A DNA stretch of 64,000 bases from Pandoraea anhela. Lineage in GTDB: Bacteria > Pseudomonadota > Gammaproteobacteria > Burkholderiales > Burkholderiaceae. The notes below the pieces were generated by a model that had not been told where the DNA came from, ran no database searches, and saw only the letters and a program-made list of their open reading frames with translations. Shown here piece by piece: positions 51,703 to 64,000 of the stretch. The stretch spans positions 1 through 64,000 of the forward strand of contig NZ_CABPSB010000026.1 of the NCBI RefSeq assembly GCF_902459655.1, in the 5' to 3' direction. How positions within the stretch are numbered: the first letter of the stretch is position 1; the number at the start of each line of letters is the position of its first letter. Position numbers and translations under genes: made by a program.

Positions 51703-54567
51703 TCAGTTCGCGCTCGCTTCCGTGGCGCTGTGCGCGTGTCCGAGGAACGCTTCTTGCTGTCGGTTGAAATCCGAGTACTGACGTTGCCATTCCGAGGGCT
51801 GCGCCACCGGCGTGACCTGCACGGCCGTCACCTTGTACTCGGGGCAGTTGGTCGCCCAGTCCGAGTTGTCCGTCGTGATGACGTTCGCGCCCGATTCCGG
51901 GAAGTGGAACGTCGTGTACACCACGCCCGGCTGCATGCGGTCGCTGACGATCGCGCGCAGCACCGTCTCGCCGGCACGGCTTTGGATGCCGACCCAGTCG
52001 CCGTCCTTGATGCCGCGCTCCTCGGCATCGTGCGGATGGAGTTCGAGCCGGTCTTCGCTATGCCACTGGTTGTTGTCGGTACGGCGCGTCTGCGCACCGA
52101 CGTTGTACTGCGACAGGATCCGCCCGGTCGTGAGGATGAGCGGGAAGCGACGCGTGACCTTCTCATCTGTCGGCACGTACTGCGTGATGAGGAACTTGCC
52201 CTTGCCGCGCACGAATTCGTCGATGTGCATGACGGGCGTGCCGTCGGGCGCGTCGTCGTTACACGGCCATTGCACGCTGCCCACGCGGTCGAGCTTCTCG
52301 TAGCTCACCCCCGTGAAGGTGGGCGTGAGGCGCGCGATTTCGTCCATGATTTCCGACGGATGTGAGTAGTTCATCTCGTAGCCCAGACGTTTGGCGAGCT
52401 GAATCGTCACTTCCCAGTCGGCGTAGCCGGCGCGCGGCGGCATGACCTGGCGCACACGCGAAATACGGCGCTCGGCGTTGGTAAACGTGCCGTCTTTTTC
52501 GAGGAACGACGAACCCGGCAGCAGCACGTGCGCATACTTGGCGGTTTCGTTGAGGAAGATGTCCTGCACGACGATGCACTCCATCTGTTCGAGCGCATGC
52601 GTGACGTGCTGCGTGTTCGGGTCCGACTGCACGATGTCTTCGCCCTGGCAGTACAGGCCCATGAAGGTGCCGGCGAGCGCCGCGTCGAACATGTTCGGAA
52701 TGCGCAGGCCCGGCTCGGATTGCAGCTCGACGCCCCATTCCGCTTCGAACAGCGCGCGTGCGCTCGAATCCGATACATGACGGTAGCCCGGCAGTTCGTG
52801 CGGGAACGCCCCCATGTCGCACGACCCCTGTACATTGTTCTGACCGCGCAGCGGGTTCACGCCCACGCCTTCCCGACCGATATTGCCGGTCGCCATGGCG
52901 AGGTTGGCGATGCCGATCACCGTCGTCGATCCCTGTGCGTGTTCCGTCACGCCCAGCCCGTAATAGATCGCTGCGTTACCGCCCGTGGCGTACAGGCGCG
53001 CGGCGCCGCGCACGAGATGGGCGGGCACGCCGGTGTGGGCTTCGGTGGCTTCCGGCGAATTCTCGGCGCGGGCGATGAAGTCGCGCCATTGCGAGAAGGC
53101 GCGATCTTCGCAGCGCTCGGCGATGAAGGCGTCGGCCATCAGACCTTCGGTGACGATCACGTGCGCCAGGGCATTGATCATGGCGACGTTCGTGCCCGGA
53201 CGCAGTTGCAGGTGATAGTCGGCCTTGATATGCGGGCTCTTGACCAGATCGATACGACGCGGGTCGATCACGATCAGTTTCGCGCCTTCGCGCAGACGCT
53301 TCTTCATGCGCGAGCCGAATACCGGGTGGCCGTCCGTGGGGTTCGCACCCATCACGAGAATCACGTCGGACTGCTCGACCGATTTGAACGTCTGCGTGCC
53401 GGCCGATTCCCCGAGCGTGGCCTTCAGGCCGTAGCCGGTCGGCGAGTGGCACACTCGTGCGCAGGTGTCGACGTTGTTGTTGCCGAACGCGGCGCGCACC
53501 AGCTTTTGCACGAGATAGTCCTCTTCGTTCGTGCAACGCGACGACACGAGGCCGCCGATGGAGTCGCGCCCGTACTTCGCCTGAATGCGCTTGAATTCCG
53601 ACGCCGCGTAATCGAGCGCCTCGTCCCACGACACTTCCTGCCACGGGTCGGTGATCTTCTTGCGGATCTTGGGCGTGAGAATACGGTCCTTGTGCGTGGC
53701 GTAACCCCAGGCGAAGCGACCCTTCACGCAGGCATGGCCTTCGTTGGCCTGACCGTCCTTGTGCGGCACCATGCGCACGACTTCGTTGCCCTTCATCTCC
53801 GCCTTGAACGAGCAGCCCACGCCGCAATAGGCGCAGGTGGTGATCTTGGCGTGCTCGGCCTGACCGAGATGGATGACCGACTTTTCCTGCAAGGTTGCGG
53901 TCGGGCAGGCGGCCACGCAGGCGCCGCACGACACGCATTCCGAATCCATGAACGGCTGGTCCTGACCCGGCGACACACGGGCTTCGAAGCCACGGCCCGA
54001 GATCGTCAGCGCGAACGTGCCCTGCGTTTCCTCGCAGGCGCGCACGCAGCGGTTGCAGACGATGCACTTCGAGGCGTCATAAGTGAAATAGGGGTTCGAC
54101 TCGTCTTTCTCGCTGTCGAAGTGGTTCGCGCCATCGAAGCCGTAGCGCACTTCGCGCAGGCCGGTGACGCCGGCCATGTCCTGCAATTCGCAGTCGCCGT
54201 TCGCGGCACACGTCAGACAGTCCAGCGGGTGATCGGAGATATAGAGCTCCATCACGTCCTTGCGCAGTTCCTGGAGCTTCGGCGATTGCGTGCGCACTTT
54301 CATGCCGGGTTCGACCGGTGTGGTGCACGACGCCGGGAAGCCGCGACGGCCTTCGATTTCGACCAGACACAGACGGCACGAACCGAAGGGTTCGAGCGAG
54401 TCGGTCGCGCACAGCTTGGGCACGTTCACGCCGCCCTCGGCGGCCGCGCGCATGATCGACGTGCCGGCAGGCACGGTGATCTGTTCGCCGTCGATCTCCA
54501 GCGTGACTTCCTTCGTCGATTCACGGCGCGGGGTGCCGTAGTCCTTCTCAAACATCGGGTCCATCAT
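51703..54567 (-). CDS. fdsA: NAD-dependent formate dehydrogenase, alpha subunit (Mo-bisPGD)
   Basis: A 954-residue catalytic subunit. The N-terminal part is NuoG-like: a [2Fe-2S] domain (Cys53, 64, 67, 81), a His-Cys site in HPLDCLTC and Cys126, and two [4Fe-4S] motifs (CIVCNRCVRAC at 168-178, CVSCGACVAAC at 211-221). From about 240 the molybdopterin oxidoreductase part follows with a further cluster (CAYCGVGC, Cys280). The likely Mo ligand is Cys373 in ARVCHSPTGYG, so no selenocysteine is used. The C-terminal domain (NQWHSEDRLELHPHDAEERG) binds the second pterin. It oxidises formate to CO2 in the cytoplasm. It follows fdsB by 13 bases. Confidence 0.97.
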   Translation of the reverse strand: MMDPMFEKDYGTPRRESTKEVTLEIDGEQITVPAGTSIMRAAAEGGVNVPKLCATDSLEPFGSCRLCLVEIEGRRGFPASCTTPVEPGMKVRTQSPKLQELRKDVMELYISDHPLDCLTCAANGDCELQDMAGVTGLREVRYGFDGANHFDSEKDESNPYFTYDASKCIVCNRCVRACEETQGTFALTISGRGFEARVSPGQDQPFMDSECVSCGACVAACPTATLQEKSVIHLGQAEHAKITTCAYCGVGCSFKAEMKGNEVVRMVPHKDGQANEGHACVKGRFAWGYATHKDRILTPKIRKKITDPWQEVSWDEALDYAASEFKRIQAKYGRDSIGGLVSSRCTNEEDYLVQKLVRAAFGNNNVDTCARVCHSPTGYGLKATLGESAGTQTFKSVEQSDVILVMGANPTDGHPVFGSRMKKRLREGAKLIVIDPRRIDLVKSPHIKADYHLQLRPGTNVAMINALAHVIVTEGLMADAFIAERCEDRAFSQWRDFIARAENSPEATEAHTGVPAHLVRGAARLYATGGNAAIYYGLGVTEHAQGSTTVIGIANLAMATGNIGREGVGVNPLRGQNNVQGSCDMGAFPHELPGYRHVSDSSARALFEAEWGVELQSEPGLRIPNMFDAALAGTFMGLYCQGEDIVQSDPNTQHVTHALEQMECIVVQDIFLNETAKYAHVLLPGSSFLEKDGTFTNAERRISRVRQVMPPRAGYADWEVTIQLAKRLGYEMNYSHPSEIMDEIARLTPTFTGVSYEKLDRVGSVQWPCNDDAPDGTPVMHIDEFVRGKGKFLITQYVPTDEKVTRRFPLILTTGRILSQYNVGAQTRRTDNNQWHSEDRLELHPHDAEERGIKDGDWVGIQSRAGETVLRAIVSDRMQPGVVYTTFHFPESGANVITTDNSDWATNCPEYKVTAVQVTPVAQPSEWQRQYSDFNRQQEAFLGHAHSATEASAN

Positions 54568-54580
54568 GATCGGGGGTCTC

Positions 54581-56167
54581 CTAGGCGGCCTTGGTCGGCA
54601 GGTTCGACGATTCGGCCGCGCCGAAGTCTTCTGGGAAATGATTCAGCGCAGACAGCACGGGGTAGGGTGTCATGCCGCCCATGGCGCACAGCGAACCGTT
54701 GAGCATCGTGTCGCACAGGTCGCGCAGCAGCTTGATCTGCTTGGGGCGGTCGCGCCCGTCGATGATCTTGTCCATCACCTCGACGCCGCGCGTGGAACCG
54801 ATGCGGCAGGGCGTGCACTTGCCGCACGATTCGATGGTGCAGAACTCCATCGCATACCGGGCGAGCCTGGCGAGATCGACCGTGTCGTCGTGCGCCACGA
54901 TGCCGCCGTGGCCGAGCACGGCCCAGTGCGCGGCGAATGCTTCGTAGTCGAGCGGCGTGTCCCACTGCGATTCCGGCAGATATGAGCCGAGCGGGCCGCC
55001 GACCTGCACCGCGCGCAACGCACGGCCGGTGATCGCACCGCCGCCGTAGTCGTAGAGAATTTCGCGCAGCGTCACGCCGAAGGCCTTCTCGATGAGGCCG
55101 CCGTACTTGATGTTGCCCGCGAGCTGGATGGGCAGCGTGCCGCGCGAGCGGCCCATGCCGAAGTTCTTGTAGAAGTCGGCGCCGCGATCCATGATGATCG
55201 GCACCGACGCCAGCGAGATCACGTTGTTGATGACCGTGGGCTGGCCGAAGAGACCTTCGATGGCGGGCAGCGGCGGCTTGGCGCGCACCACGCCGCGCTT
55301 GCCTTCGAGACTCTCGAGCAGCGCCGTTTCTTCGCCGCAGACGTAAGCGCCGGCCGCTTTGCGCACTTCCAGGTGGAAGGTCTTGCCCGAGCCGAGAATG
55401 TTCTCGCCGAGGTAGCCCGCCTTGCTGGCGTTTGCAATGGCGACGTTCAGCACATCGATGGCGTGCGGATATTCGCTGCGAACGTAGATATAGCCGCGTG
55501 TCGCACCCACGGCGACACCGGCGATCGTCATGCCTTCGACGAGCACGAGCGGATCGCCTTCCATCAGCATGCGGTCCGCGAATGTGCCCGAATCGCCTTC
55601 GTCCGCGTTGCAAACGATGTACTTCTGCGCAGCAGGGGTGTTCAGCACCGTCTTCCACTTGATGCCGGTCGGGAATGCCGCACCGCCGCGACCGCGCAGG
55701 CCGGACTCGGTGACTTGCGCGACGATGGCGGCGCCGTCGAGCGCCAGCGCGTTGCGCAGGCCGCGATAGCCGTCGTGCGCGACGTAGTCGTCGACCGAGA
55801 CGGGATCGGTGATGCCGACGCGGGCGAACGTCAGGCGCTCCTGCTTCTTGAAATACGGAATGTCTTCGGTCGGACCGAGGGCGAGCGGATGATCGCCGCC
55901 GGCGGTGACGTCGGCGTCGAACAGGCTGGCGACGTCGTCGACTTCGACCGGTCCGTAAGCCACGCGACCGGCCGGGGTCACGACTTCGAGCAGCGGTTCG
56001 AGCCAGAGCATGCCGCGCGTGCCGTTGCGTACCAGTTCGATGTCGATGCCGCGCTGCGCGGCTTGTGCGGTGATGGCTTCGGCGACTTCGTCGGCGTCCA
56101 GCGCGAGGGCGGCGGAGTCACGCGGCAGATAGAGCCGCACCGTGTGGGTGTTCGGGGACTGGCTCAT
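54581..56167 (-). CDS. fdsB: NAD-dependent formate dehydrogenase, beta subunit (diaphorase)
   Basis: A 528-residue NuoF-like subunit. The N-terminal 120 residues hold a thioredoxin-like domain (VRLYLPRDSAAL), without the usual cluster cysteines. The FMN and NADH sites are ESGLRGRGGAAFPTGIKWK at 154-172 and NADEGDSGTFADRMLMEGDP at 188-207, with GAYVCGEETALLESLEGK later. The [4Fe-4S] cluster ligands are Cys448, 451 and 454 in ESCGKCTPC, and Cys494. It takes electrons from FdsA and reduces NAD+. It overlaps fdsG by three bases (ATGA) and precedes fdsA. Confidence 0.97.
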   Translation of the reverse strand: MSQSPNTHTVRLYLPRDSAALALDADEVAEAITAQAAQRGIDIELVRNGTRGMLWLEPLLEVVTPAGRVAYGPVEVDDVASLFDADVTAGGDHPLALGPTEDIPYFKKQERLTFARVGITDPVSVDDYVAHDGYRGLRNALALDGAAIVAQVTESGLRGRGGAAFPTGIKWKTVLNTPAAQKYIVCNADEGDSGTFADRMLMEGDPLVLVEGMTIAGVAVGATRGYIYVRSEYPHAIDVLNVAIANASKAGYLGENILGSGKTFHLEVRKAAGAYVCGEETALLESLEGKRGVVRAKPPLPAIEGLFGQPTVINNVISLASVPIIMDRGADFYKNFGMGRSRGTLPIQLAGNIKYGGLIEKAFGVTLREILYDYGGGAITGRALRAVQVGGPLGSYLPESQWDTPLDYEAFAAHWAVLGHGGIVAHDDTVDLARLARYAMEFCTIESCGKCTPCRIGSTRGVEVMDKIIDGRDRPKQIKLLRDLCDTMLNGSLCAMGGMTPYPVLSALNHFPEDFGAAESSNLPTKAA

Positions 56168-56631
56168 ACGGCATCCTTGGCGCGGGCGACCAGACGGTCG
56201 AATTTCTCGGGGGTGACGCGCGCGTGCAGCTTGTCGTCGATGGTGATGGCCGGTGAAGTCGCGCATTGCCCAAGGCAAAACACGGGTTCGAGGGCGACAT
56301 CGCCGCTGTGGCTGTGCATTGCGCAACCCAATACGCGTTCGGCGTGGGCCACGAGTGCATCGGCACCCATGCTCTGACACGCCTCGGCGCGACAGATCTG
56401 AACCACGTGTCGCGGCGGCGGGCTGGTGCGGAAATGGTGATAGAACGTGATCACGCCGTGGACTTCGGCGCGAGACAGGTTGAGGGCGGTGGCGATGACG
56501 GGCACGGCATCCGGGGGAACGTAGCCGAAAGCGTCCTGAACGTCATGAAGAATCGGCAGAAGGGGGCCTTCCTGATCTGCATGAGCGTCCAGAATCGCTT
56601 GCACCGTCGCGATGGAAAAAGCCTCGCGCAT
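56164..56631 (-). CDS. fdsG: NAD-dependent formate dehydrogenase, gamma subunit
   Basis: A 155-residue NuoE-like [2Fe-2S] protein. The cluster cysteines are Cys80 and 85 (VQICRAEACQSMGA) and Cys119 and 123 (EPVFCLGQCATSPAI). The N-terminal helical bundle (LPILHDVQDAFGYVPPDAVP, then LNLSRAEVHGVITFYHHF) is characteristic. It relays electrons between FdsA and FdsB. It is the first gene of the fdsGBAD operon, with an AGGAG nine bases before ATG 56631 and a long leader of about 240 bases from the predicted promoter and operator. Confidence 0.96.
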   Translation of the reverse strand: MREAFSIATVQAILDAHADQEGPLLPILHDVQDAFGYVPPDAVPVIATALNLSRAEVHGVITFYHHFRTSPPPRHVVQICRAEACQSMGADALVAHAERVLGCAMHSHSGDVALEPVFCLGQCATSPAITIDDKLHARVTPEKFDRLVARAKDAV

Positions 56632-56868
56632 GGCTGATGTCTCCTGTTCGGCGCACTGAGGGGAGCGGCGCACGTTAGGTGTTGATATGTTTTTATCCTG
56701 CCCCGGGGCGAGAGACCCAATTGGTCGCATGCGGAGACGCTGCTCGGGTCTAGCGATCAGCGCGACGCCACATGAGCGTGCGACACACAGCCCCCACCAT
56801 ATGTCGCACGGGCTCGGCCTCTCGCCCGTTGCTGACTTCGTCAACCTTCGGTCAGTATGTGAAACACG

Positions 56869-56888
56869 ATATATCATATACGGTATAC
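56869..56888. promoter_or_regulatory. Shared oxalate/formate operator upstream of fdsG
   Basis: ATATATCATATACGGTATAC contains two overlapping copies of the 13-mer RTATA-NCN-TATAY (56869-56881 and 56876-56888, the second with CGG in the centre), equivalent to three 7-bp units. On the minus strand a TTGTCA (56900-56905) and GTATAT (56876-56881) spaced by 18 bases form a promoter candidate, so the operator covers the -10 region. The same motif is found upstream of panE, oxlT and the 72-aa gene. Confidence 0.6.
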
Positions 56889-57040
56889 GTGCAATAGCGT
56901 GACAAGCGGATTTGCAGGATCGTTTACCCGGAGTCGAAAGCCCGGGCGGGCGCAGTCGAAACGTGACGCGCGAGAGGGGGCGTCGACAGATGTGCCGGAC
57001 CGAAGCGGGCGGCGGTGGGACGTTACGGATCAACGAAAAA

Positions 57041-57070
57041 AGCCAGCGACCGTGTCGGGTATCGCTGGCT
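57041..57070. terminator. Bidirectional Rho-independent terminator
   Basis: AGCCAGCGA (57041-57049) pairs with TCGCTGGCT (57062-57070) in a perfect 9-bp stem, with A-runs before and T-runs after, so it works in both directions. It ends the FadR-type regulator gene. Confidence 0.9.
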
Positions 57071-57113
57071 TTTTCTCGACGTGCGTTAGCGCGTCGGGCG
57101 GGGAGGGAACGGC

Positions 57114-57827
57114 TTACTCGAGGAAGTCGCAGTGCTCTTCGACGAAGGCCGCCAGTCCAAGGGTGTGGTCGCGCGCGAGCTTCTCGGCAAGTTCCGTGTC
57201 GCGCTTTTCGAGCGCCGTGATGATCTTCAGATGATCGACGATCGAGCGCGCTGCCCGGTCGTTCTGAGCGATCGTCACCTTGCGGATGGCGCGCACGTGA
57301 ATGAACAGATTCTTGATCGTGTTGGCGATAGCCTGCGAGCCGCCGAGATTGATCAGTGCCTGATGAAAGTCGATGTTCGCGTCGGAATACTCTTCGATGT
57401 GGTCCGTCGGCGGTGCATTGACGAATTCGTCGAACAGGTGACGCAGCTTCGCAATCTCTTCGTCGCTCGCGTGCAGCGTGGCCAGACGCGCGGACATCCC
57501 TTCGAGGGCAGCCCACATCTGGATCATTTCCACGATTTCCCGCTTGGTCTTGCGGATGATAAAGATGCCCCGGCGCGGCACCGTACGAAGAAAGCCTTCC
57601 TGTTCCAGCAAGGTCATGGCTTCGCGAATCGGGGTGCGCGAAACGCCAAGCACCTGGATGAGCTGACGCTCGTCCAGGCGAATTTCATCTTTCTGGTTAT
57701 AGATGTCGGCATCGGCGATGGCTTTTTTCAATAGCGCATACGCCTGATTACGAAAACTCGTCGTGGTGTCGATCGGCTCCAGTGCGAGTGGCGTCACGCG
57801 CACCGGAGTTGGGGTGATCAGGGACAT
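57114..57827 (-). CDS. GntR-family regulator, FadR/FCD subgroup
   Basis: A 237-residue regulator. The winged-helix domain is at about 25-95 (YALLKKAIADADIYNQKDEI, then ERQLIQVLGVSRTPIREAMT and GFLRTVPRRGIFI). The FCD ligand-binding domain follows, with metal-binding-type residues in DANIDFHQALINLGG, IHVRAIRK and SIVDHLKIITALEKRD. FCD proteins usually bind carboxylates. It sits between fdsGBAD and the panE-oxlT-oxc-frc genes, which share a motif in their promoters, so oxalate, oxalyl-CoA, formate or glyoxylate is a plausible effector. It ends in a strong terminator and follows a small membrane-protein gene by 29 bases. Confidence 0.93.
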   Translation of the reverse strand: MSLITPTPVRVTPLALEPIDTTTSFRNQAYALLKKAIADADIYNQKDEIRLDERQLIQVLGVSRTPIREAMTLLEQEGFLRTVPRRGIFIIRKTKREIVEMIQMWAALEGMSARLATLHASDEEIAKLRHLFDEFVNAPPTDHIEEYSDANIDFHQALINLGGSQAIANTIKNLFIHVRAIRKVTIAQNDRAARSIVDHLKIITALEKRDTELAEKLARDHTLGLAAFVEEHCDFLE

Positions 57828-57856
57828 GCAATAGTCTCCTAGGTATTACGGCCCCT

Positions 57857-58075
57857 TCAGAGGCGCAATGCTTGCTGCCCCACGAGGGTGGCCGGCTTTG
57901 TGACGAGTTTACCCGATTCGTTTGCCTGCGTGGTTTCCGCCAGGTAAGCGAAACGGCCATTCGATTCGGCCTTTTCGAGCATCTTGGCGGGCAGGGCGAC
58001 GAACAGATGAACCATCGCAACACCGGCGGCGAGGGCGGAAGCCAGGGCAAGCAGAGTAAGGGCAGCGACTAACAT
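57857..58075 (-). CDS. Small membrane protein next to the FadR-type regulator
   Basis: A 72-residue protein with one hydrophobic helix near the N terminus (LVAALTLLALASALAAGVAM VHLFVALP) and a polar, mostly basic C-terminal part (MLEKAESNGRFAYLAETT). The start at 58075 has a good GGAG seven bases upstream and codon use like its neighbours, so I think it is real. It is directly upstream of the regulator gene (29-base gap) and probably co-transcribed from the promoter with the operator at 58160. I recognise no family; a role in sensing or transport in the oxalate module is only a guess. Confidence 0.6.
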   Translation of the reverse strand: MLVAALTLLALASALAAGVAMVHLFVALPAKMLEKAESNGRFAYLAETTQANESGKLVTKPATLVGQQALRL

Positions 58076-58740
58076 ATGACACTCCAGATAAAGTTGACGG
58101 GTCGTTATGTGGGGGAGAACTTGCTAGGCATTGTATGTCGCGCCGCAGCAAGTCTCAAGATATACCACATACCGAATATCAAAATTTATCGTTTTTCGGG
58201 ACGTCTTTCGCGTCACACTGCGCTTACGCGGCTCGGATTTGTCTCTTTTTCCGATAGTGCGGAGTGGGTCGGATCAGATCGATGATGGCGATGAACCTCC
58301 TCGGACGGCCGTCTGGCTTGCCATGTTGCGGATTTCGGGACGCCGGTGGCGCACGCAGTTTTCGATGATTCGGATCACGCTTTCTGGGTGGGGCAAATGC
58401 ACGTTATTGCGTTGCCGCGAAACCACATCCGGTAAGGCCTGCATGCACCGGACAGCCCCTGCGTTTCCGGCAAAATCGGCCGCGACCGGTGGTGCTTCGG
58501 CGGCACGTATGAGCGAGTGCAGTGCAGGGGGCGGGCGGGATTTTCCGGTCCCGCTGTATTGCCCGCTATATAAATAGCCGTGAACCGGCCGGTGAGGCGA
58601 GACGACTTGCCCCGGGATCCCCGAACCGATGGCTCACGCAAACGGCGGCGGCGATGGCGGCGGCGGCCGACGCCGGCCAATCCCGCTCGCCGGCGCCCGG
58701 CACATCGGGCGCACGGCGCTCAAGACTGTCTTGCGCTCGA
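58076..58740. other. Region between the small gene and panE
   Basis: A 665-base gap with the operator at 58160-58179 at its left end. The remainder is non-coding as far as I can see, including GC-rich sequence after 58300. The panE gene on the right is on the same minus strand and ends at 58741. Confidence 0.5.
58160..58179. promoter_or_regulatory. Shared operator upstream of the 72-aa gene and regulator
   Basis: ATATACCACATACCGAATAT contains two overlapping 13-mers of the RTATA-NCN-TATAY type with one or two changes each (58160-58172 and 58167-58179), giving three 7-bp units. It lies 85 bases upstream of the small gene and would allow autoregulation of the FadR-type protein. Confidence 0.5.
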
Positions 58741-59754
58741 TCACGCGGCCTTGGCCAGACGCTCCTGCGCCGCCGCTACGGCATCGGGTTTAGTCATGAA
58801 TTCGCGCTGTTTGATGAGCGCGAGCACGACGTCGAGGGTCGGCGTGGGGACGTTGGCCAGACGGCCCATCTCCTGCACGACGGAGACGAGCGGATCGATT
58901 TCCATCGCGCGGTCGCGCTCCAGATCCTGAAGCATCGACGTCTTGTGAGCCCCCACCGCGCCGGCGCCATTGATGCGTCGCTCGACGTCGACACGGAAAT
59001 GCACGCCGAACTTGTCGCCGATGGCTTTGGCTTCGAGCATCATGGCGCGCGCGACGGCCCGGGTGCCCGGATCGCTGGCAATGATGTCGAGCGTGCCGTG
59101 CGTGAGGGCCGAGATCGGGTTGAAGCAGAGGTTGCCCCACAGCTTGAGCCAGATTTCGTCGCGGATGTTTTCGCGAATCGGCGCGTCGAGCCCGCCGGCG
59201 ATCATCATCTGCGAGAGCGCCTGCACGCGCTCGGTGCGCTCGCCGCTGGCTTCGCCGAGCGGGAACTTGTTGCCGTAGACGTGCTGGATCACGCCGGGCG
59301 CCACGACTTCTGTCGCCGGATACACCACGCAGCCGATGGCGCGCTCCGGTCCGAGTTCGCGCCATTGGCGACCGCCCGGATCGATGCTCTCGAGCGTCGT
59401 CCCTTCGAGTGCGCCGCCGTGCTTATAGAAGTACCAGTAGGGGATGCCGTTCACGGCAGTGACCACGGCCGTATTCGGGCCGATCAGCGGTTGCATCGCG
59501 TCGAGTACCGACGGGACCGAATGTGCCTTGAGCGCGATGATCACGTAATCCTGATGCCCGAGTTCGCGCGCGTCGTCCGTGCAGCGCAGATGGGCGACGC
59601 GTTCTTCGCCGTCGATGAGCAACTTGAGTCCGTTCTCGCGCATGGCCGCCAGATGCGGTCCACGCGCCACCAGACTGACATCGGCTCCGGCGCGCGCGAG
59701 TTGCACGCCGAGGTAGCCACCGATGGCGCCGGCGCCATAGATGCAAATCTTCAT
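58741..59754 (-). CDS. Ketopantoate reductase (PanE) family protein, possible oxalyl-CoA reductase
   Basis: A 337-residue PanE/ApbA-fold dehydrogenase. The NADP-binding motif is YGAGAIGGYLGVQLARAG at 5-22. The catalytic lysine lies in EIWLKLWGNLCFNPISALT and the later KTSMLQDLERDRAMEIDPLV matches the substrate-binding segment of PanE. In Methylobacterium extorquens a PanE paralogue (PanE2) in the oxalate locus is the oxalyl-CoA reductase that makes glyoxylate. The position here, facing oxlT-oxc-frc and sharing their operator motif, favours that role over pantothenate synthesis. That is inference; ketopantoate reductase activity is the alternative. Confidence 0.88.
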   Translation of the reverse strand: MKICIYGAGAIGGYLGVQLARAGADVSLVARGPHLAAMRENGLKLLIDGEERVAHLRCTDDARELGHQDYVIIALKAHSVPSVLDAMQPLIGPNTAVVTAVNGIPYWYFYKHGGALEGTTLESIDPGGRQWRELGPERAIGCVVYPATEVVAPGVIQHVYGNKFPLGEASGERTERVQALSQMMIAGGLDAPIRENIRDEIWLKLWGNLCFNPISALTHGTLDIIASDPGTRAVARAMMLEAKAIGDKFGVHFRVDVERRINGAGAVGAHKTSMLQDLERDRAMEIDPLVSVVQEMGRLANVPTPTLDVVLALIKQREFMTKPDAVAAAQERLAKAA

Positions 59755-59839
59755 GAAGTCTCTCCCTCCAAAGGTGAATCGAAACCCGGGCCTGGTACTG
59801 GCCGCTTGTGTTCTCTTTATTTTTCTAATACCAAATGTT

Positions 59840-59852
59840 GTATATCGTATAT
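59840..59852. promoter_or_regulatory. Shared operator upstream of panE
   Basis: GTATATCGTATAT is a near-perfect 13-mer of the shared type and is also a tandem pair of the 7-mer GTATATC. On the minus strand it overlaps a promoter candidate, TTGCCT 16 bases before TATACA. It lies 86 bases before the panE start. Confidence 0.6.
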
Positions 59853-60326
59853 CACAAGGGAGGCAACGCCAAGTCTTGTTGGGGTATTGGGGCTCATGGT
59901 TTCCCCGCAGACGCCCGAAAACCGGCGGTTCGCATGTGTGAGCGTTGCGGGCATCAATTGCATTTGCGAAATACCCGACACCGCCCCGCGAGTGAATTAT
60001 TACGGTGTGTTACAGCGCGGGAAGATTCGAGTCGGGGTGCGTTTTTTGTGAACAAAATTCACAGGAATATCGCCTTGTGCCCGTTTCAAAAAATCCCAAG
60101 GAGCCCGATACAAAAGGCGTTAGCGCCTTATCGGGCAACGTTCCAGGATCAGGTTAACTCCTTAGTGTTTTCGCATTGCGTTGTTGCGCCGCTCCGTCCT
60201 ACAGTTGCGTTACTGTATCTAGCCGCCACTTAGGACAGTGCCTCGCGTGCCGGTGTTGTTGTCGCTGCAATGGACGAAAACGACATCGGCACGCGAGGGG
60301 GAAGCGAGGACAGCAATAAATTAGTG

Positions 60327-60354
60327 TTGACTTATATCTGATATATCGTATATT
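60327..60354 (+). promoter_or_regulatory. Promoter of oxlT
   Basis: TTGACT (60327-60332) and TATATT (60349-60354) are separated by 16 bases. The operator 60341-60353 covers the spacer and most of the -10 box, which would let a repressor block it. Confidence 0.55.
60341..60353. promoter_or_regulatory. Shared operator at the oxlT promoter
   Basis: ATATATCGTATAT fits the shared 13-mer ATATA-TCG-TATAT exactly, with TTATATCTG directly before it. It overlaps the -10 box of the promoter in front of oxlT. Confidence 0.6.
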
Positions 60355-60519: not shown

Positions 60520-61851
60520 GTGGAGACGACAAATCAACACGGTAAGCAATCCGTGTTCGCGAGCCCTTGGGTTCAGCTCGTGTTCGGCGTGATTTGCATG
60601 GCGATGATCGCCAACCTGCAGTACGGGTGGACGCTGTTCGTCAACCCGATCGACGAGAAGTATGGGTGGGGCCGTACGGCCATTCAGGTGGCGTTCACGA
60701 TTTTCGTCGTGACGGAAACCTGGCTGGTGCCGATCGAAGGGTATCTGGTCGACAAGTTCGGCCCGCGCCCGGTGGTCGTCGGCGGCGGTCTGTTGTGCGG
60801 TATTGCATGGGTGCTCAACGCCTATGCGTCTTCGCTGCCGATGCTGTATTTCGCGGCGGCAGTCGGCGGTGTCGGCGCCGGTGCGGTGTACGGCACCTGC
60901 GTGGGTAACGCGCTGAAGTGGTTCCCGGATCGCCGCGGTCTTGCCGCGGGCCTGACCGCCGCCGGTTTCGGCGCAGGTTCGGCGCTGACCGTGGTGCCGA
61001 TCGCCAACATGATCAAGTCGAGCGGCTACGAGAACACCTTCCTGACGTTCGGTCTGGGTCAGGGGATCATCGTGCTGTTGCTGGGTCTGGCGCTCGCCAA
61101 CCCGCCGGCCTCGATCGAAGCGCTCAAGAAGCTGGCGCCGGGCGCAATGCGCTACAACGCCAAGCCGACGGAAGTCATGCGCTCTCCGGTGTTCTGGCTG
61201 ATGTATCTGATGTTCGTGCTGATGGCCGCCGGCGGTCTGATGGCAACGGCTCAGCTCGGCCCGATCGCCAAGGACTACGGTCTGGATCAGGCGCCGGTCT
61301 CGATTCTCGGCCTTACGCTGCCCGCACTGACCTTCGCGCTGGCCATCGACCGTGTGCTCAACGGGGTGACGCGTCCGGTGTTCGGCTGGATCTCGGACAA
61401 GATCGGACGGGAAAACACCATGTTCATCGCCTTCGCGATGGAAGCTGCGGGGATTTACGCACTGGCGAAGTTCGGTCAGCACCCGGTGGCCTTCGTGATC
61501 CTGACCGGTCTGGTGTTCTTCGCCTGGGGTGAGATCTACAGCTTGTTCCCGGCGACTTGCGCCGATACGTATGGTTCGAAGTACGCCGCCACCAACGCGG
61601 GCATGCTGTACACCGCGAAGGGAACCGCCGCGTTGCTGGTGCCGTTCTCGAGCATCATCACCGTGTCGACCGGTAGCTGGCAGGCCGTGTTCATGATCGC
61701 TTGCGCCATGAACGCCTTCGCCGCCTTCCTTGCCTTGTTCGTTCTCAAGCCGATGCGTGCCCGTCTGGCACAGCGTTACGCCAGCGACTACAAGGCGGAA
61801 TCGAACGAGCCGATAGTCAAAGCGACGGACCTGAGCCGCAGCACGACGTGA
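60520..61851 (+). CDS. oxlT: Oxalate:formate antiporter (MFS)
   Basis: A 443-residue, twelve-helix MFS transporter. FASPWVQLVFGVICMAMIAN followed by LQYGWTLFVNPIDEKYGWGR is typical of the OxlT family. A positively charged residue in helix 11 (Lys367 in MLYTAKGTAALLVPFSS) matches the essential lysine of Oxalobacter OxlT, and Arg278 in LAIDRVLNGVTRPVFGW matches its helix-8 arginine; both bind the carboxylates. It imports oxalate in exchange for formate, gaining a negative-out charge transfer. GTG or ATG at 60520 follows GGAGGAGGTACAAA. It is the first gene of the oxlT-oxc-frc unit. Confidence 0.93.
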   Translation: METTNQHGKQSVFASPWVQLVFGVICMAMIANLQYGWTLFVNPIDEKYGWGRTAIQVAFTIFVVTETWLVPIEGYLVDKFGPRPVVVGGGLLCGIAWVLNAYASSLPMLYFAAAVGGVGAGAVYGTCVGNALKWFPDRRGLAAGLTAAGFGAGSALTVVPIANMIKSSGYENTFLTFGLGQGIIVLLLGLALANPPASIEALKKLAPGAMRYNAKPTEVMRSPVFWLMYLMFVLMAAGGLMATAQLGPIAKDYGLDQAPVSILGLTLPALTFALAIDRVLNGVTRPVFGWISDKIGRENTMFIAFAMEAAGIYALAKFGQHPVAFVILTGLVFFAWGEIYSLFPATCADTYGSKYAATNAGMLYTAKGTAALLVPFSSIITVSTGSWQAVFMIACAMNAFAAFLALFVLKPMRARLAQRYASDYKAESNEPIVKATDLSRSTT

Positions 61852-62075: not shown

Positions 62076-63854
62076 ATGTCCATTGCGATGACCGTGCCAG
62101 TCGGCAAGGCGGAAAACGACACGCTCGAAGACAACAGCCGACACGCGAACATCGTGTCCGAGGCAGCAACGACCGATGGCTTCCATCTGGTCATCGATGC
62201 CCTGAAAGCGAACGACATCGACACCATCTTCGGTCTGGTGGGGATTCCCATCACCGACCTGGCTCGCCTCGCGCAAGCCGAAGGCCTGCGTTTCATCGGC
62301 TTCCGCCACGAACAGCACGCCGGCCACGCCGCTGCGATCGCCGGCTACATGACGCAAAAGCCGGGCATCTGCCTGACGGTGTCCGCACCGGGCTTCCTGA
62401 ACGGTTTGACGGCCCTTGCCAATGCGACCACCAACTGCTTCCCGATGATTCTGATCAGCGGTTCGAGCGAGCGCGAGATCGTCGACTTGCAGCAGGGCGA
62501 CTACGAAGAAATGGATCAGCTCAATGCGGCCAAGCCCTATTGCAAGGCGGCTTACCGCGTGCTGCACGCAGAAGACATCGGCGTGGGTCTGGCGCGCGCC
62601 ATCCGTGCCGCCGTATCGGGGCGCCCCGGCGGCGTCTATCTGGATCTGCCGGCCAAGCTGCTGTCGCAGACCATCGACGCGCAGAAGGCCAAGGATTCGC
62701 TGATTCGCGTGATCGACGCCGCACCGCGTCAGATCCCGGCGCAGGACGCCGTTCAGCGTGCCCTCGACGTCATCAAGGGCGCCAAGCGTCCGCTGATTTT
62801 GCTGGGCAAGGGCGCATCGTACGCTCAGGCTGACGAAGACATTCGTGCGCTCATCGAGAAGACGGGCATTCCGTACCTGCCGATGTCGATGGCCAAGGGG
62901 CTGCTGCCCGACACGCACGAGCAATCGGCCTCGGCCGCCCGTTCGTTCGTGCTGCAAGAAGCCGACGTCGTCGTGCTGATCGGCGCGCGTCTGAACTGGC
63001 TGCTCGCCCACGGCAAGGGCAAGACCTGGGGGGCGGCACCGAAGAAGTTCGTGCAGATCGACATCTCGCCCACGGAAATCGACAGCAACGTGGCGATCGC
63101 CGCCCCGGTGATCGGTGACATCGGTTCGTGCGTCAAGGCGCTGCTCGCCGGCGTGGACGCCAACTTCGGCAAGCCGTCGACCGAGTGGACCGGTGCGATT
63201 GCGGAACGCAAGAACAAGAACCTGGCGAAGATGGCTGCAACGCTGGCCCAGAATCCGTCGCCGATGAACTTCCACAGCGCACTCGGCGCGATCCGCGATG
63301 TGCTGAAGAAGCATCCGGACATCAATCTCGTCAACGAAGGTGCAAACACGCTCGACTACGCCCGCGCCATCATCGACCAGTATCAGCCGCGCAAGCGTTT
63401 CGACTCGGGTACCTGGGGCGTGATGGGCATCGGTATGGGCTTCGCGATTGGCGCCGCCGTCACGAGCGGCCTGCCGGTCGTGGCGATCGAAGGCGACAGC
63501 GCTTTCGGCTTCAGCGGCATGGAACTCGAAACCATCTGCCGTTACGAGCTGCCGGTCACCACCATCATCTTCAATAACAACGGCGTGTACCGAGGCACCG
63601 ACGTCAACCCGACCGGCGGCAAGGACGTGGCCCCGACGGTGTTCGTCAAGGGCGCGCGCTACGACAAGATGATCGAAGCGTTCGGCGGCATTGGTTACAA
63701 CGTGACCACGCCGGCCGAGCTGATCAAGGCGCTCGAGGAATCCATCGCGTCGGGCAAGCCGAGCCTGATCAACGCTGTGATCGACGAATCCGCCGGTACG
63801 GAAAGCGGCCGTCTGACGAATCTGAACCCGCAAAGCGCGGCGATGAAAAAGTAA
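62076..63854 (+). CDS. oxc: Oxalyl-CoA decarboxylase (thiamine diphosphate enzyme)
   Basis: A 592-residue ThDP enzyme. The N-terminal Pyr domain has [16 protein letters not shown] and the catalytic-type glutamate in [20 protein letters not shown]; the segment [20 protein letters not shown] is diagnostic of oxalyl-CoA decarboxylase. The central domain binds ADP, and the PP domain carries [20 protein letters not shown] then [15 protein letters not shown], the GDG-N metal motif. Oxalobacter Oxc is about 568 residues, so this has about 24 extra at the N terminus. It converts oxalyl-CoA to formyl-CoA and CO2. ATG 62076 has GGAGGAGAGAATT; frc follows in 27 bases. Confidence 0.97.
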
Positions 63855-63881: not shown

Positions 63882-64000
63882 ATGAGCAAACCCCTCGAAG
63901 GAATCAAGATCATCGACTTCACGCACGTGCAGGCCGGTCCGGCATGTACCCAGCTGCTGGCATGGTTCGGCGCCGACGTGATCAAGGTGGAGCGCCCGGG
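63882..64000 (+). CDS. frc: Formyl-CoA:oxalate CoA-transferase, N-terminal part
   Basis: The first 39 codons of a family III CoA-transferase run off the window end. [20 protein letters not shown] followed by [20 protein letters not shown] is the conserved N terminus of Frc, including the segment around the CoA-binding VQAGP. Frc moves CoA from formyl-CoA to oxalate, giving oxalyl-CoA for Oxc and free formate for FdsGBAD. ATG 63882 is preceded by AAGGAGACATGAC. Only the beginning is seen, so length and catalytic Asp cannot be checked here. Confidence 0.95.

Follow-up and report, generated by a model that had tools for sequence, protein, structure and literature searches.

A predicted shared operator and a GntR-type regulator for the oxalate/formate genes of Pandoraea anhela

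Four upstream regions of an oxalate/formate gene module in Pandoraea anhela share a predicted operator, and a GntR-type regulator encoded within the module is probably the protein that reads it. The stretch analysed, hereafter the window, comprises 64,000 nucleotides (RefSeq assembly GCF_902459655.1, contig NZ_CABPSB010000026.1, positions 1 to 64,000). The module genes are ordered fdsGBA (- strand), a gene for a 72-amino-acid protein with the regulator gene (-), panE (-), and oxlT-oxc-frc (+). We consider it probable that the protein encoded at 57114-57827 is an autoregulated repressor that binds these sites and is released by a metabolite of the oxalate pathway, with binding, repression, and ligand being what we infer. 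The sites and the regulator are as follows, with scores from the outgroup-only profile described below.

56866..56889, + strand: predicted operator before the fdsGBA operon (itself on the - strand), 25.7 bits, containing two overlapping exact 13-mers
58157..58180, + strand: predicted operator before the 72-amino-acid gene and regulator, 29.7 bits, the best score in the window
59832..59855, - strand: predicted operator before panE, 28.3 bits
60331..60361, + strand: predicted operator before oxlT-oxc-frc, in two overlapping registers, 18.6 and 17.0 bits
57114..57827, - strand: FCD/VanR-group GntR regulator, the proposed binder of the sites (Pfam FCD 4e-25, GntR 6.6e-11; structure model and fold search)

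Predicted operators in the window

The original prediction placed a 13-mer, RTATANCNTATAY, at four regulatory regions, and exact copies do stand before fdsG (56869-56881 on the + strand and 56876-56888 on the - strand, overlapping as predicted), panE (59840-59852, +), and oxlT (60341-60353, +). The copy at 58160, before the 72-amino-acid gene and regulator, has one mismatch and its overlapping partner at 58167 has two; these were correctly described as degenerate, yet they form the version closest to the sites of other genera. No further exact copy occurs in the window, and none occurred in 100 dinucleotide shuffles. Allowing up to one mismatch gave 10 matches, all inside the four regions, against 0.06 expected. 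Across the genome (6.05 Mb, 61 contigs), six exact copies were found, four of them at this locus, while the same word read backwards had none. Exact copies were present in 32 of 32 Pandoraea genomes, including two that do not carry the regulator.

A longer profile was derived independently from an outgroup, which excludes the Pandoraea species cluster (it holds four deep-branching Pandoraea loci, L031-L034, and otherwise loci of other genera; L110 was left out as a duplicate of L033). De novo search of 92 non-redundant upstream regions, kept from 253, returned the motif nTGATATATnACATAynrwATwT with a log-likelihood of 803, compared with 65-76 in five mononucleotide shuffles. A first expectation-maximisation profile was rejected because an unrelated conserved word, AAACTTTAATT..., from upstream of Paraburkholderia oxlT-like and panE genes had been mixed in, and its counts were replaced by those of a refined profile. 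The refined outgroup-only profile (24 positions, 55 distinct sites) reads nTGATATAYCACATACnrnATnnn, and 14 bits was taken as the site threshold. With this profile, the window contained four sites at or above threshold, exactly the four regions listed above, and the next, unrelated match scored 11.6 bits. Masking the four regions left no sites. For 200 column-permuted profiles, the mean was 0.04 sites and the maximum two, with one permuted profile reaching a best score of 21.2. The earlier statement that no comparable copies occur elsewhere in the window is thus supported by the 13-mer scan, the shuffles, and the 24-position profile.

In 61 named non-Pandoraea loci (1.19 Mb), which are also the training set of the profile, we found 178 sites at or above 14 bits. 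The large majority (162) lay within 500 bp upstream of a regulator, frc2, oxc or oxc-like, panE, or oxlT gene, and none lay within those genes; several of the remaining 16 were close to where a contig ends or preceded an oxc-like or frc2 gene by more than 500 bp. Ten column-permuted profiles gave 0-19 sites in these loci, and random 450-bp stretches, drawn without avoiding true sites, reached 14 bits in 60 of 1300 cases.

Conservation of the sites

Besides the four deep-branching Pandoraea loci, 27 close ones were retrieved, and conservation was counted in these with the window included and loci lacking a given stretch left uncounted. The regulator had an upstream site at or above threshold in 28 of 28 loci, panE in 28 of 28, oxlT in 27 of 27, and fdsG in 26 of 26, so that conservation before the same genes in relatives, which had been proposed as a check, held in 26-28 loci per gene with a profile built outside the species cluster. 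Control genes of the same loci had no such sites (frc1 0/28, pas 0/28, fah 0/25). In one Pandoraea locus without oxlT, the site stands before oxc. The operator and both promoter-like hexamers at oxlT (see below) were nearly letter-perfect in 25 distinct Pandoraea sequences, and the flanks varied. Of the refuting outcomes named beforehand, the two that motif scans can address were both not seen: nowhere else in the window did the motif reach a comparable density, and relatives retain it.

In the outgroup, where counts for training regions are partly by construction, sites were present at 67 of 67 regulator regions, 33 of 52 frc2 regions, and four of four oxc regions. Sites before panE occurred in 11 of 31 outgroup regions, all of them Cupriavidus or deep-branching Pandoraea. 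Upstream regions of outgroup fah genes, which lie outside the training set, had none (0/48). Among 20 fdsG upstream stretches from elsewhere, chosen from at least 72 matches, one reached threshold (22.9 bits), and it belongs to a deep-branching Pandoraea (L184). We therefore rejected fds as a general target, and control of fds looks like a Pandoraea speciality.

Co-occurrence of regulator and operator

The regulator was found at E 1e-40 in 30 of 32 Pandoraea genomes, and the named relatives in which it is almost identical are Pandoraea species. Among 200 genomes of the family, the regulator was present in 87 (E 1e-70) and oxc in 81 (E 1e-200), and 19 of these 81 were outside the regulator list. 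We read the oxc upstream stretches of 20 chosen genomes out of the 81 (11 of the 19 without regulator, four with a linked and five with an unlinked regulator). All four oxc loci with a linked regulator had sites. None of the 11 stretches from regulator-less genomes (ten from one small-genome genus and one other) reached 14 bits, the best being 12.2; ten of them are AT-rich (guanine-cytosine fraction 0.44-0.47), a composition in which shuffles alone sometimes reach 14 bits, and still fell below threshold.

At the class level, three of 273 other genomes, from other families, had the regulator at E 1e-70 (48-50% identical, tblastn). All three distant regulators are beside oxc-like and frc2 genes, and two are also beside panE. 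At one of these loci (L203), TTGGTATATTGTATACTGTATACG, consisting of three tandem 7-mers, lies 68 bp upstream of the regulator and scores 26.7 bits; at another (L202), a site of 21.1 bits lies 3.4 kb from the regulator. Conservation and presence or absence together with the regulator support the earlier suggestion of a shared operator, a small regulon, and putative autoregulation.

In Paraburkholderia (L064, L066, L079, and others), oxlT-like (~55%) and panE genes are preceded by a different conserved word, approximately AAACTTTAATTATTAGTAATTCA. A similar word precedes the operator-less oxlT-oxc loci L151-L153, and perhaps reflects a second oxalate regulator.

Operator architecture

The fuller operator is TGATATAYCACATAC-nnn-AT, about 24 bp long, with three AT-rich half-sites at a 7-bp pitch. 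In column correlations, the 7-bp direct repeat was the strongest regularity (0.69 in the outgroup, 0.90 in Pandoraea), which makes the tandem 7-mer reading that had been offered beside the 13-mer the better description. The correlations also gave dyads at 3.5-bp steps, seen as overlapping dyads TGATATATCA or RTATR-N3-YATAY. A repeated half-site that is self-complementary should give such dyads, and the dyad and tandem readings therefore describe one thing.

Divergent operator pairs less than 400 bp apart were seen 37 times in the 61 outgroup loci; 24 were spaced 161-167 bp apart, and the rest 64 or 174-205 bp. These pairs (L053-L114) lie mostly between the regulator and an oxc-like or frc2 gene, and looping or double control is possible.

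Class of the regulator

The original prediction called the regulator a FadR-type FCD GntR protein. Assignment to the FCD subfamily of GntR regulators was confirmed, with Pfam scores of 42.2 bits for GntR (cut-off 27) and 89.1 bits for FCD (cut-off 24.3), but the helices of the model and the ranking of the fold matches led us to reject membership of the FadR group. Effector domains of the VanR group have six helices. In the AlphaFold2 model (predicted local distance difference test score 86.8), helices span residues 95-119, 122-130, 140-161, 165-180 (with 182-186), 191-207, and 211-232, and in the fold search VanR-titled entries occupied ranks 4 to 23, with Escherichia coli FadR first appearing at rank 42. 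An additional first helix, present in the FadR group, is missing from VanR-group effector domains (PMC7797058, in part). We accordingly place the regulator in the VanR group of FCD proteins, an assignment taken from the predicted structure without helix-by-helix comparison.

Residues N151, H155, H199, and H221, assigned by motif position, were invariant in 24 sequences and fit a predicted metal set of Asn/Asp plus three His, the set described for the FCD subfamily (PMC7797058, in part). Assignment to PhnR (TIGR03338) was rejected, as the score of 105.6 bits is far under the equivalog cut-off of 271.5 bits.

Promoter-like sites and proposed mechanism

A consensus scan found promoter-like sites at two of the regions.

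60327..60354, + strand: TTGACT-16-TATATT before oxlT; no variation in either hexamer among 25 distinct Pandoraea sequences
58130..58158, - strand: TTGAGA-17-TACAAT before the 72-amino-acid gene and regulator; identical hexamers across 24 distinct Pandoraea sequences

At oxlT, the scan alone is weak because two sites were found against 1.8 expected; both hexamers are, however, invariant, and the earlier claim that the oxlT site overlaps a -10 box agrees with the -10-like hexamer TATATT. The operator here extends over the spacer and this hexamer. Before the regulator, it adjoins the -35 on the upstream side and has hardly any overlap with either hexamer.

We propose that, without oxalate, regulator dimers would be bound on the repeat operators. 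Bound dimers would cover the oxlT spacer and -10 and would occupy the panE, fds operon, and frc2 sites, keeping transcription low, while at its own promoter the regulator would sit adjacent to the -35 and limit its own synthesis. On entry of oxalate, an early metabolite (oxalyl-CoA or oxalate; glyoxylate or formate being less likely) would occupy the FCD pocket. Release of the regulator would then allow a joint rise in uptake by OxlT, CoA transfer by Frc, decarboxylation by Oxc, reduction by PanE to glyoxylate, and formate oxidation by Fds. Induction of such genes in a relative fits this model: Burkholderia terrae has an oxlT-oxc-frc cluster whose expression goes up in the vicinity of a fungus (PMC5209427, in part, a text in which the word GntR is absent).

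Sites beyond the four regions

A genome scan used a second profile, R1, with 13 Pandoraea sites among its 38. It returned 11 matches at E ≤10, which fall in eight places, five of them within the module and the others at C5:224514, C1:185741, and C1:417279. Since R1 includes Pandoraea sites, the module matches are partly by construction, and those on C5 and C1 are not.

C26:66249-66270 and 66022-66045 (L003 6250-6271 and 6023-6046): operator-like sites before frc2, past the window end; outgroup profile 10.4-13.1 and 15.8 bits (the 66249 site scored 11.1 bits, E 4.1, in the R1 scan)
C5:224514 (L135 ~7515): site upstream of an unlinked oxlT2, whose product is 55% identical; the locus looks, by eye, like glycolate (oxidase) genes
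C1:417279-417295 (L001 8274-8297): a copy of the word where a gene for an HPP/CBS-like membrane protein (by eye) begins, also in both other genomes inspected (L119, L120)
C1:185741 (L136 ~7742): strong site, followed after 35 bp by an alpha/beta hydrolase-like open reading frame (by eye)

The oxlT2 site was present in 19 of 21 Pandoraea genomes read (of 31 with the gene), at 23.9-28.6 bits and a computed 441-751 bp ahead of the gene. It was absent in G025, which does not carry the regulator. A GntR-type gene (by eye) neighbours oxlT2 and could be the user of this site. With weaker sites before frc2 and a strong one before oxlT2, the earlier count of exactly four regulatory regions was too low, and the predicted regulon looks larger than those four. 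Two deep-branching Pandoraea (L117 ~3327, L118 ~3502), one of which does not carry the regulator, also have a similar word at the same position. Its occurrence in a regulator-less genome means that another factor may use it.

Alternative explanations

Several observations weigh against a regulon held together by this regulator and its operator. At oxlT-oxc loci whose regulator is unlinked, two of five had a site and three bore another conserved word instead; the distant locus L201 had no site, and the oxlT2 site was absent in G030 despite two regulator copies. Most outgroup oxlT-like genes (46/48, with two having a site) and panE genes (20/31) had no site, and upstream of frc2 in Pandoraea 14 of 26 loci reached threshold, with weaker sites of between 12.6 and 14 bits in the other 12. 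The loci share ancestry, so site counts are not independent events. No oxalate role is evident for the genes at the C1:417279 and C1:185741 sites, and a similar word occurs near unrelated genes in regulator-less G025. The 13-mer with one mismatch was rejected as a genome-wide definition, since its 33 matches compare with 51 for the reversed control. Because such matches are unspecific and exact copies also occur in regulator-less genomes, the regulon is not defined by the short word alone, which is only the visible part of the signal. Additionally, the consensus scan identified no promoter at fdsG or panE, and the operator before the regulator lies upstream of the -35, a placement that would also suit an activator.

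That last point is the usual activator position, and the fdsG, frc2, and oxlT2 sites are far from start codons. The same regulon and protein could thus work by activation, with the ligand-bound regulator recruiting RNA polymerase. We regard this as unlikely, as the oxlT operator lies between and on the hexamers, where bound protein should block polymerase, and both Atu1419 and NanR are described as repressors in the parts of the literature covered. Somewhat more improbable is that the sites are read by another factor, such as a second FCD protein or the product of a LysR-like gene beyond frc2, with the regulator gene merely a target. The word's presence at genes with no clear link to oxalate, and once in a regulator-less genome, would suit this explanation, as would the GntR-type neighbour of oxlT2, but a site precedes the regulator in all 67 outgroup and 28 Pandoraea regions, and the 11 regulator-less oxc loci have none. 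Least credible, and very improbable, is that the AT-rich words are mere promoter elements (-10 boxes or AT stretches) in a GC-rich genome. Overlap with a -10-like hexamer occurs at oxlT, but 24 conserved positions with a 7-bp period recur in one pathway across several genera, no 14-bit site occurs elsewhere in the window, and the site at the regulator promoter barely touches either hexamer.

We prefer the reading in which an early metabolite lifts repression, because the operator lies on the oxlT spacer and -10 and the protein is of the FCD VanR group. Autoregulation is consistent with an operator upstream of the regulator's own transcription unit in every Pandoraea and outgroup region counted, the latter being training regions.

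Genes of the module

The proposed targets and the remaining genes of the module are listed below.

51703..54567, - strand: fdsA, formate dehydrogenase alpha subunit, proposed target operon (TIGR01591, 944.9 bits, cut-off 666.25)
54581..56167, - strand: fdsB, NuoF-like formate dehydrogenase subunit, proposed target operon (NCBIfam nuoF 6e-127, under the family cut-off; start codon picked by eye)
56164..56631, - strand: fdsG, formate dehydrogenase gamma subunit, proposed target (placed by tblastn; named from the original prediction and its position beside fdsB and fdsA)
57857..58075, - strand: open reading frame for the small hydrophobic 72-amino-acid protein, the first gene ahead of the regulator and co-directed with it
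58741..59754, - strand: panE, PanE/ApbA-family reductase, proposed target (Pfam ApbA; NCBIfam NF005089 above cut-off)
60520..61851, + strand: oxlT, oxalate/formate antiporter, proposed target (TIGR04259, 639.3 bits, cut-off 335)
62076..63854, + strand: oxc, oxalyl-CoA decarboxylase, proposed target (NF006721 and TIGR03254 above cut-off)
63882..64000, + strand: start of frc, formyl-CoA transferase, proposed target, extending past the window end (L003 3883-5130; named from its neighbourhood and the original prediction)

The 72-amino-acid protein matched no Pfam or NCBIfam family at E 0.001, and its tblastn matches were in Pandoraea loci only. Beyond the window, the module continues with a small PAS-like gene, frc2, and a fumarylacetoacetase-like gene, all three named by eye; the PAS-like gene (L003 5403-5849) lies between both frc genes and is present in 28 of 28 close Pandoraea loci. 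The PanE/ApbA protein is more likely a predicted oxalyl-CoA reductase than a ketopantoate reductase, judging from its setting among oxalate genes and the precedent of ApbA2 in Cupriavidus necator, whose gene lies near frc-oxc and is required for normal growth on oxalate (PMC7486775, in part).

A second fdsG in the same genome (C8:54790-55230) is 58% identical and does not have a strong operator (12.3 bits, L189), which points to one oxalate-linked and one separate formate dehydrogenase.

Relation to known systems and significance

FCD GntR repressors of catabolic clusters are common. Among the high-ranking fold matches was Atu1419 of Agrobacterium fabrum, a VanR-group FCD GntR protein (PDB 6z74 and others). 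Atu1419 represses itself, and the single degradation cluster it controls contains several of its operators, which lie either on the -10 or in the stretch separating it from the -35; its metal set of three His and Asn/Asp corresponds to the one predicted here (PMC7797058, in part). Its operator is a 10-bp palindrome, ATGTATACAT, unlike the 24-bp three-half-site 7-bp repeat, and it controls hydroxycinnamate rather than oxalate genes, being released by N5,N10-methylenetetrahydrofolate. A pair of its palindromes 190 bp apart was seen looping, which the paired outgroup operators recall. NanR of E. coli, also of GntR type, has an operator of three tandem TATA-containing repeats, (GGTATA)3, comparable with the 7-bp repeats here (PMC8012715, in part), but differs in repeat word and in its sialic acid ligand, and our regulator resembles the NanR family weakly (E 1.2e-15, 57.8 bits, cut-off 260). 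PmiR of Pseudomonas aeruginosa (PDB 7xp0/7xp1) was the first PDB match by E-value in sequence and fold, with ~27% identity over the aligned part. The best NCBIfam family by score was the PhnR-type regulator of Burkholderia, which is named for phosphonate use, not oxalate. The oxalate/glyoxylate module of C. necator H16 (apbA2, frc-oxc) likewise has a PanE/ApbA-family gene near frc-oxc, and the main text of PMC7486775 contains no mention of GntR.

Oxalate sensing by oxalotrophic bacteria seems hardly described, and a literature search of titles and abstract starts, with partial coverage, found no GntR regulator of frc-oxc-oxlT genes. What is newly seen is an FCD GntR regulator with a clear predicted operator and a metabolic regulon, not found described in the literature searched. 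With a candidate regulator, a defined operator, and targets listed for Pandoraea, Paraburkholderia, and Cupriavidus, oxalate sensing becomes directly testable, and the same elements may supply parts for an oxalate biosensor. One such switch would join formate oxidation and oxalyl-CoA reduction. More tentatively, a VanR-group FCD repressor may read oxalyl-CoA or oxalate directly, with cooperating dimers on the three-half-site operator at 7-bp pitch, an array resembling that of NanR but in another FCD group, and looping between paired inverted operators. This fuller version is less likely than not; if it is true, oxalotrophic Burkholderiales would share such a protein as their general sensor of oxalate.

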